A stretch of 64,000 bases of DNA from Thalassomonas sp. RHCl1 (GTDB taxonomy: Bacteria; Pseudomonadota; Gammaproteobacteria; Enterobacterales; Alteromonadaceae). Made by a program: the position numbers and the translations under genes. Within the stretch, counting starts at the first letter, position 1; the number at the start of each line of letters is the position of its first letter. This document shows, piece after piece, positions 12,476 through 63,977 of the stretch. Below the pieces are notes generated by a model. The model saw nothing but the letters and a program-made list of their open reading frames with translations, made no database searches and was not told the DNA's origin. Location of the stretch: NCBI RefSeq assembly GCF_947387555.1, contig NZ_CANDNZ010000007.1, forward strand, positions 62,001 through 126,000, given 5' to 3'.

Positions 12476-12919
12476 ATGGCGGCAAGCAATAAAAACTACA
12501 TGATGAAGTTGGGGGAATTTGAGTTTGCGGTGAAAGCCGCAAGCTTTCATAAGCTCAGTTATGCTTCCAGCTATCGCTGGGAGCCCAATGAGGCGCCAAC
12601 AAAGACGAATAGTCCGTTAATGCAATATATCGGACCGGGGGAGCGTACCCTGGATATTGAAGGGATTATTTATCCGCAAATGGCGCCCAATGGCTTAAAG
12701 CAGGTTGATGATATGCGTAAGCAGGCCAGTAAAGGTGAGCCGCTTCAACTTTGTTATGTCGAAGCCGCCTCCGGAGGCATTGGCGGAGTCGGCCGAATAT
12801 TAGGTAAATGGTGTATCAGCTCTATCAATGAGGAACGTACCTTGTTTTTAGCCGACGGTAACCCGAGAGAAATTACCTTTACCATGTCATTAAAAGCATA
12901 CAAATTCAAAGTCGAGTAG
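12476..12919 (+). CDS. U: Tail protein U (P2 gpU family)
   Basis: 147 residues, starting 2 bp after the tape-measure stop. Matches the P2 GpU family in length and content: MKLGEFEFAVKAASFHKLSY at the start, GERTLDIEGIIYPQ in the middle and a C-terminal LGKWCISSINEE segment. gpU is a structural/assembly protein needed for contractile tail formation; in R-pyocins the homologue lies in the same T-U-X-D order as here. Confidence 0.9.
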   Translation: MAASNKNYMMKLGEFEFAVKAASFHKLSYASSYRWEPNEAPTKTNSPLMQYIGPGERTLDIEGIIYPQMAPNGLKQVDDMRKQASKGEPLQLCYVEAASGGIGGVGRILGKWCISSINEERTLFLADGNPREITFTMSLKAYKFKVE

Positions 12920-63656: not shown

Positions 63657-63797
63657 GTCTGGTTGAAGAGGCATTTAATTTAACACTAGATAATGTCTAT
63701 TTTATTTATCGTTTCACACCCTTTCTTTATTGGTTTTTTTCTGTAGTATCTAAGGTTGTACAAAAAACACCCAATCATTTTCAGTTAAGGAAGAGCC

Positions 63798-63977
63798 ATG
63801 AAAATAAAATTAAAAAAGACACATCTAAAAAAGCTTTCACAAGACAAAAAAATATTGCCGGCAGATATGACACCGAGAGTTGGTGGTGGGGGAGATTATG
63901 CGACGGATACCTGTCTTCCTACTTATAAAGCCTGTTTGACCGTAAATCAATGGTGTGGCCCTACAGGGGTTTGTTAA
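63798..63977 (+). CDS. Putative RiPP (lanthipeptide-like) precursor peptide
   Basis: 59 residues with AAGGAAGAG before the ATG. The leader is very basic (MKIKLKKTHLKKLSQDKK), continuing ILPADMTPRVGGGG, which ends in a Gly run like a double-Gly cleavage site. The core begins DYATDTCLPTYKAC and ends NQWCGPTGVC: 4 Cys and 5 Thr in 27 residues. This is the build of short lanthipeptide or bacteriocin precursors of marine gammaproteobacteria (KLKK...LS...LP...TP.V.GG leaders). No modifying or transport gene is visible before the window ends 23 bases later. A disulfide-bonded, unmodified peptide is an alternative. Confidence 0.7.
   Translation: MKIKLKKTHLKKLSQDKKILPADMTPRVGGGGDYATDTCLPTYKACLTVNQWCGPTGVC

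Follow-up and report, generated by a model that had tools for sequence, protein, structure and literature searches.

Class I lanthipeptides are already described from Thalassomonas. In the part of PMC11433236 available to us, thalassomonasins A and B of Thalassomonas actiniarum have cores of 25 and 26 aa that contain 3 and 2 Cys, respectively, and the viridisins of T. viridans (VdsA1-A3), also class I, have precursors with 4, 2 and 2 Cys. PciA of Pseudoalteromonas citrea is likewise a class I lanthipeptide and, according to the portion consulted of PMC9993889, was modified on expression in E. coli. Among class II systems, the excerpt at hand of PMC10783134 gives 29 ProcA precursors for ProcM (the prochlorosins) and 79 putative precursors for SyncM (the synechococsins).

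Here we analysed a short gene at the right edge of a 64,000-nt window of Thalassomonas sp. RHCl1, the window being the whole stretch of DNA under study (positions 62001-126000 of contig C7, which is ~385 kb long). The genome (G000) is 7.56 Mb in 39 contigs, and the congeners G001, G002 and G003 are near-complete. From sequence comparison, we consider it likely that the gene encodes a class I lanthipeptide precursor that belongs to a set scattered over the genome and is processed in trans. Like the thalassomonasins and viridisins, as PMC11433236 describes them, it would belong to a system of LanB and LanC with double-Gly-leader precursors, probably in the same genus; unlike those in-cluster precursors, the window peptide is unlinked, and it has another leader variant and an unrelated core. 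PciA shares with it the proposed class I assignment and an origin in a marine gammaproteobacterium, but PciA is described from a gene cluster, and this comparison is by description in PMC9993889. The prochlorosins and synechococsins, as partly seen in PMC10783134, offer the same arrangement of one synthetase and many scattered precursors with a conserved leader and a variable core, whereas the enzyme here would be LanB plus LanC and not LanM.

The features of the window gene, with their basis, are:
63787 to 63793, plus strand: ribosome-binding site AAGGAAG (sequence)
63798 to 63977, plus strand: precursor peptide gene, 59 aa, proposed LanA (sequence, paralogs, orthologs, dN/dS)
63798 to 63890, plus strand: leader, residues 1-31, a conserved family block ending V-G/A-G-G (alignment A1 of 19 paralogs, window peptide included)
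63891 to 63974, plus strand: core, residues 32-59, with 4 Cys, each preceded at a distance of 3-5 residues by a Thr (sequence, composition)

The ORF at 63798-63977 translates as MKIKLKKTHLKKLSQDKKILPADMTPRVGGGGDYATDTCLPTYKACLTVNQWCGPTGVC. The sequence-only reading had described it as a 59-residue ORF in the form of a RiPP precursor, having a strong ribosome site, a basic double-Gly leader, and a GGGG stretch followed by a 27-residue core that contains 4 Cys and 5 Thr. These elements are present as claimed: AAGGAAG lies 4 nt before the ATG, the leader is Lys-rich, and the 27 aa after GGGG include 4 Cys and 5 Thr but lack Ser. Its assignment as a double-Gly-leader RiPP precursor draws support from the paralogs, orthologs, core grammar and LanB co-occurrence given below, and the peptide has the N-terminal leader and the C-terminal core with Cys and Ser/Thr that a LanA should have. 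On the paralog alignment, cleavage after G31, leaving a 28-aa core that begins with Gly, fits better. The calculated mass of this core is 2979.29 Da unmodified, 2907.25 Da with four waters lost and 2889.24 Da with five; cleavage after G32 would give 2922.27, 2850.23 and 2832.22 Da. A stem-loop and then a T-rich stretch start 29 nt 3' of the stop, 6 bases outside the window (L002 6006-6026); the hairpin is of moderate stability, since 10 of 200 shuffled sequences folded equally well or better. Given this terminator-like hairpin just 3' of the stop, the gene looks monocistronic. A search for a sigma-70-like promoter of the window gene found none.

A cluster of maturation and export genes, with LanB, LanC and C39 peptidase near the window gene, had been predicted to begin right of the window, and this prediction failed. 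The next 14 kb hold other, housekeeping-type genes, for proteins that we take, from their translations, to be FadB-type, a thiolase, pyrophosphatase-like and fructose-bisphosphatase-like, among others. Whole-genome profile searches gave no LanB, LanC or C39 peptidase match on the 385 kb of C7, and at C7:140001-160000 (L003) neither the whole-genome family-profile search nor tblastn of enzymes returned anything. We rejected a local cluster; the machinery is on other contigs. LanB lies on C10, and in G002 ~268 kb separate the two genes. A LanA gene usually, though not obligatorily, lies next to its LanB, and the window gene does not.

The window peptide has many relatives in its own genome. As a query it matched 28 places at E <=10, and 20 of these, itself included, at E < 1e-4. 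A profile built from alignment A1 recovered 29 own-genome members at E < 1e-7 in a whole-genome search; the window peptide's own profile score is partly by construction, and the pairwise matches are free of that. We dropped a 30th profile row (E 0.66), which fell inside LanB, and the best profile match among reversed translations of 24,220 ORF segments had E 0.41. Across the 29 members the leader is conserved and the core hypervariable, and 25 have an AAGGA-type site 5' of the gene, as read by eye. All but one are intact, the exception being C27:12528, broken in its leader; this broken member (L058 ~12528-12653) is ~3 kb from another C39/HlyD pair. The window holds no second family member, and only two of the 29 adjoin LanB. 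The leaders of these two score 37 and 42 profile bits vs 79 for the window peptide. Since the LanB-linked leaders differ in this way from the dispersed leader, the genome's LanB might serve only its own two precursors.

The congeners show a similar dispersal. Counting profile matches, a few of them with internal stops, and sites >20 kb apart, we found 29 members at 22 sites in G002 (2 members within 20 kb of LanB), 15 at 12 sites in G003 (2 within 20 kb) and 23 at 18 sites in G001 (4 within 20 kb). In Pseudoalteromonas denitrificans DSM 6059 there are at least 8 members, distributed over 6 contigs; one of them adjoins LanC/LanB. Five intact own-genome members are poor in Cys, four with a single Cys and one with none. 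The Cys-free-core member (L073 10157-10354, plus strand, G000:C6:218157) ends up ~95 nt from the end of a convergent C39 gene, and Cys-free members of like kind occur near the same C39/HlyD exporter in G001-G003. Such a member could form no lanthionine and is perhaps a signal or inducer peptide.

Other origins for the dispersal were considered. Phage or plasmid origin was rejected, with no tblastn matches in phage and plasmid collections at E 1e-5 and no PHROG. Spread as a mobile repeat was rejected too: by eye, the 90 bases 5' of each own member share little but the ribosome site, tandem groups excepted. The precursor family had no solved-structure relatives at E 1. A Pfam scan of the window peptide alone at a maximum E of 10, in which the HMMER filters drop most matches with E above about 0.1, gave no family, Nif11 included; the Nif11-type leader of the prochlorosin kind was thus not found in the window peptide.

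Syntenic orthologs of the window gene, downstream of the same gene, which we presume to be of deacetylase type, are present in two of the three congeners, G002 and G003; in G001 the gene is absent at the syntenic place. In both orthologs the core differs by one change, L47F, and the leader by two changes in G002 and three in G003. Calculated on few sites, Nei-Gojobori dN/dS for the window ORF as a whole was 0.16 against G002 and 0.06 against G003; the leader gave 0.12 and 0.08, respectively, and the core 0.29 and 0.04. On own-genome matches, syntenic orthologs and purifying substitution, the ORF is confirmed as a real gene and not a chance one. The sequence-only reading was to be given up if modification and export genes were missing nearby and the ORF was also not conserved; the local genes are indeed missing, but the ORF is conserved.

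Constraint extends to the family. For pooled ortholog pairs of equal length with cores at least half identical, dN/dS was 0.09 in the leader and 0.07 in the core for 18 G000-G002 pairs, 0.07 and 0.14 for six G000-G003 pairs, and 0.03 and 0.17 for two G000-G001 pairs; the core figures lean low, because pairs failing this filter are left out. Matching by flank similarity assigned G002 counterparts to 26 of the 29 own-genome members, G003 counterparts to 15 and G001 counterparts to 18, the latter two figures being too high because four C3-group members were paired with unrelated cores; the pairing is also ambiguous inside other tandem groups. At C5:340423 (L072 ~10423) the flanks match G002 closely and the core is very different, which suggests rapid core replacement.

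The cores share a grammar. When all 29 own-genome cores are taken, that of the pseudogene among them, a Ser/Thr stands 2-6 residues before 75 of the 79 Cys, vs 53.5 +- 3.7 expected when Cys are held fixed and the other residues permuted, and none of 1000 shuffles reached the observed count. An earlier shuffle that moved Cys too gave 73/76 vs 44.1 and is superseded by the Cys-fixed version. Upstream controls stayed near expectation (DENQ 48 vs 53.0, AGV 57 vs 56.4, Pro 22 vs 22.5). Downstream of Cys, Ser/Thr were raised as well (49/79 vs 38.5), and AGV were lowered (33 vs 41.7, with 4 of 1000 shuffles as low). Across 66 similarity-reduced cores from nine genomes, upstream Ser/Thr again exceeded expectation (158/174 vs 116.7), and downstream DENQ was somewhat raised (96 vs 84.6; 19/1000). 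The signal was weaker in the cores of genome G020 alone (34/39 vs 27.1, reached by 3 of 1000 shuffles), where Thr alone was at expectation (19 vs 18.3). For the window core by itself the Thr-Cys spacing is not significant, as 12.8% of shuffles do as well. As read from the cores, the upstream Ser/Thr pattern is what lanthionine formation needs.

Machinery for such a modification is present elsewhere in the genome. A whole-genome search found exactly one LanB, on C10. It is 1064 aa long from its first start codon, has both lantibiotic dehydratase Pfam domains (N- and C-domains), counts NisB among its PDB-chain matches, and contains RPTPFG, RYGDP, HLRLRF, YDREVERYGG and HMHTNR, which we take as LanB motifs. 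It is flanked by a LanC gene immediately upstream and by two family precursors immediately downstream. LanC-like matches occur at three places, C26, C5 and C10; two of these are LanC besides LanM, and both contain GLAHG, GWCYG and CHG, presumably the zinc-ligand motifs. Two of these loci lie apart from LanB:
L055 3727-4947, on C5: unlinked LanC, with zinc-ligand motifs, no LanB nearby and counterparts in G001-G003
L056 9962-13297, on C26: LanM, class II synthetase, 1111 aa, with both domains; also in G001 and G002, not found in G003

The C5 LanC is about 40% identical to its own genome's LanB-linked LanC. It is closer to LanB-adjacent LanCs of other species: identity is ~65% to those of L088 and L086/L209 (L086 and L209 being one and the same contig), 54% to that of L089, for a range of 54-66% over these, and 50% to that of L208. 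In a tree it groups with the LanB-adjacent LanCs of L086/L209, L088 and L089, with several long branches and an unsure inner order. Its counterparts in G001-G003 are 83-97% identical, and the 20 kb fetched around them held no LanB match. Because its closest relatives found accompany LanB in species with this leader, the unlinked LanC is a candidate cyclase.

Six C39 peptidase matches were found in the genome (C1, C6, C2, C27, C3 and C13). The C6 protein, with an adjacent HlyD, is 97-99% identical in G001-G003 and 74-79% identical to the C39 proteins beside LanB/LanC in L089, L208 and L209. In L089 and L209, HlyD, C39, LanC and LanB stand together with precursors. In G020 (L208) the four genes stand in a single run; the 12 kb examined there contain no family member, and 16 matches lie elsewhere.

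The precursor family and LanB occur together across genomes. The family was present at E 0.001 in 10 of 78 genomes (own included) and LanB in 12 of 78, with a LanB match in all 10 genomes with the family vs 2 of the 68 without it. Fisher p was 5e-11 by genome and 2e-8 by genus (7/7 vs 2/65), values that are optimistic because the genomes are related (four of the 10 are of one genus). The LanB matches in the two non-family genomes, G039 and G046, are weak (E 1e-35 and 1e-22). Within the family genomes, the LanB match of G042 is in pieces (E 1e-27), and the sole family match of G044 has an internal stop. A wider draw from the taxonomic family, at E 1e-5, found the precursors in 24 of 246 genomes and in 11 of 52 genera. 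Two further genomes of G020's genus have at least 23 and at least 20 members, these counts being minimum values because no more than 26 candidates were scored in any genome.

These data bear on several alternatives. The peptide might be a double-Gly product that is cleaved by C39 and leaves through the lanthipeptide exporter without any lanthionine, as a disulfide or linear form. The six C39-type proteins suit this proposal, as does the Cys-free member close to the C6 C39 gene (~95 nt from its end), but disulfides do not need the Ser/Thr that specifically precede Cys family-wide, nor does it fit the LanB match in 10 of 10 family genomes, and we regard it as unlikely. The dispersed precursors might also be processed by the class II LanM of C26, which has both domains. 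LanM, present in 6 of 78 genomes, co-occurs weakly with the family (4/10 vs 2/68, Fisher p 0.002). It was not found in 6 of the 10 family genomes, which thus lack the LanM partner of the prochlorosin type; G003 (15 members) and G020 (16 members) have no LanM found and do have LanB. With this distribution across genomes LanM was rejected as the partner, and we give its involvement hardly any credence. Nor does decay account well for the gene. One paralog is a pseudogene and the gene is missing at its syntenic place in G001, as might be expected of a decaying relic left by a local cluster since lost, and now unprocessed, but dN/dS of 0.06 to G003 (16 synonymous and 5 nonsynonymous changes) argues against this, making a relic very unlikely.

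A radical-SAM-modified RiPP of the TIGR04149 kind appears highly improbable on the following evidence. Like these GG precursors, the window peptide has a short leader ending in Gly-Gly, and it matches their profile weakly (E 0.0047); unlike them, it scores 16.8 bits, below the cut-off of 25, and of 19 members two match with E <=0.1. Matches below cut-off to TIGR04148, the radical SAM that we take to be the partner of TIGR04149, occur in 4 of 10 family genomes, but also in 11 of 14 control genomes, and none of the 10 family genomes has a match over cut-off. Four sub-cut-off radical SAM matches do lie 2-8 kb from one G003 member, but in G000 the counterpart of that member (C2:724320) and the radical SAM match (C2:989126) are ~265 kb apart. 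Radical SAM was rejected as the partner, the profile match being weak and TIGR04148, the sole radical SAM family searched, staying below cut-off.

We return to the preferred reading, a class I precursor processed in trans. In this pathway the short window gene would be transcribed alone. Its leader would be recognised by the genome's only LanB, on another contig beside LanC, and LanB would dehydrate Thr/Ser of the core. LanC would then close thioether rings from Cys, the candidates being the LanB-linked LanC and the unlinked LanC. The unlinked C39-peptidase ABC exporter with its HlyD partner would cleave after the Gly-Gly motif and export the product. With many cores on one leader, one enzyme set could thus make a peptide library. 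We infer the action of LanB and LanC on the window peptide, its ring pattern, its export and its biological role from these comparisons. About 28 intact shared-leader precursors are probably all made ring-bearing by one distant dehydratase. On the best reading, one LanB would process ~26 unlinked precursors in trans, in a distributed class I pathway that parallels the prochlorosins of class II. We lean slightly towards a still broader view, in which the system is dispersed at every step: one LanB, two LanC of which one is dedicated and unlinked, an unlinked C39/HlyD exporter, ~26 LanB-unlinked precursors with one leader and hypervariable cores, and selection across species, making up an independently arisen class I counterpart of the prochlorosins in marine gammaproteobacteria.

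Cluster-based genome mining would most directly see 2 of the 29 precursors, those adjoining LanB in the own genome. Their cores (25 aa, 3 Cys; 26 aa, 2 Cys) let the own LanB cluster fit the thalassomonasin cluster as described in the part of PMC11433236 that we consulted. In G001, LanB has four precursors next to it, three with 4, 2 and 2 Cys and a fourth that is truncated; this cluster fits the viridisin of T. viridans in the same partial source. The partial literature covered, with the primary Thalassomonas cluster papers outside it, holds no recognisable description of scattered class I precursors in these bacteria. Should a single LanB act on every core, it would represent a naturally broad class I enzyme set. 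If true, this would raise the question of whether one-enzyme, many-product lanthipeptide libraries evolved twice, as class II in cyanobacteria and as class I in gammaproteobacteria, and would open the question of what such libraries are for.

We also observed radical SAM matches in two places. At G000:C2:986929-989647 (L077, L225), a sub-cut-off TIGR04148 match lies ~2 kb from a C39 match. The four sub-cut-off matches in G003, at C1:3214860-3220368, are those 2-8 kb from member C1:3212769. These groups possibly belong to another RiPP system.
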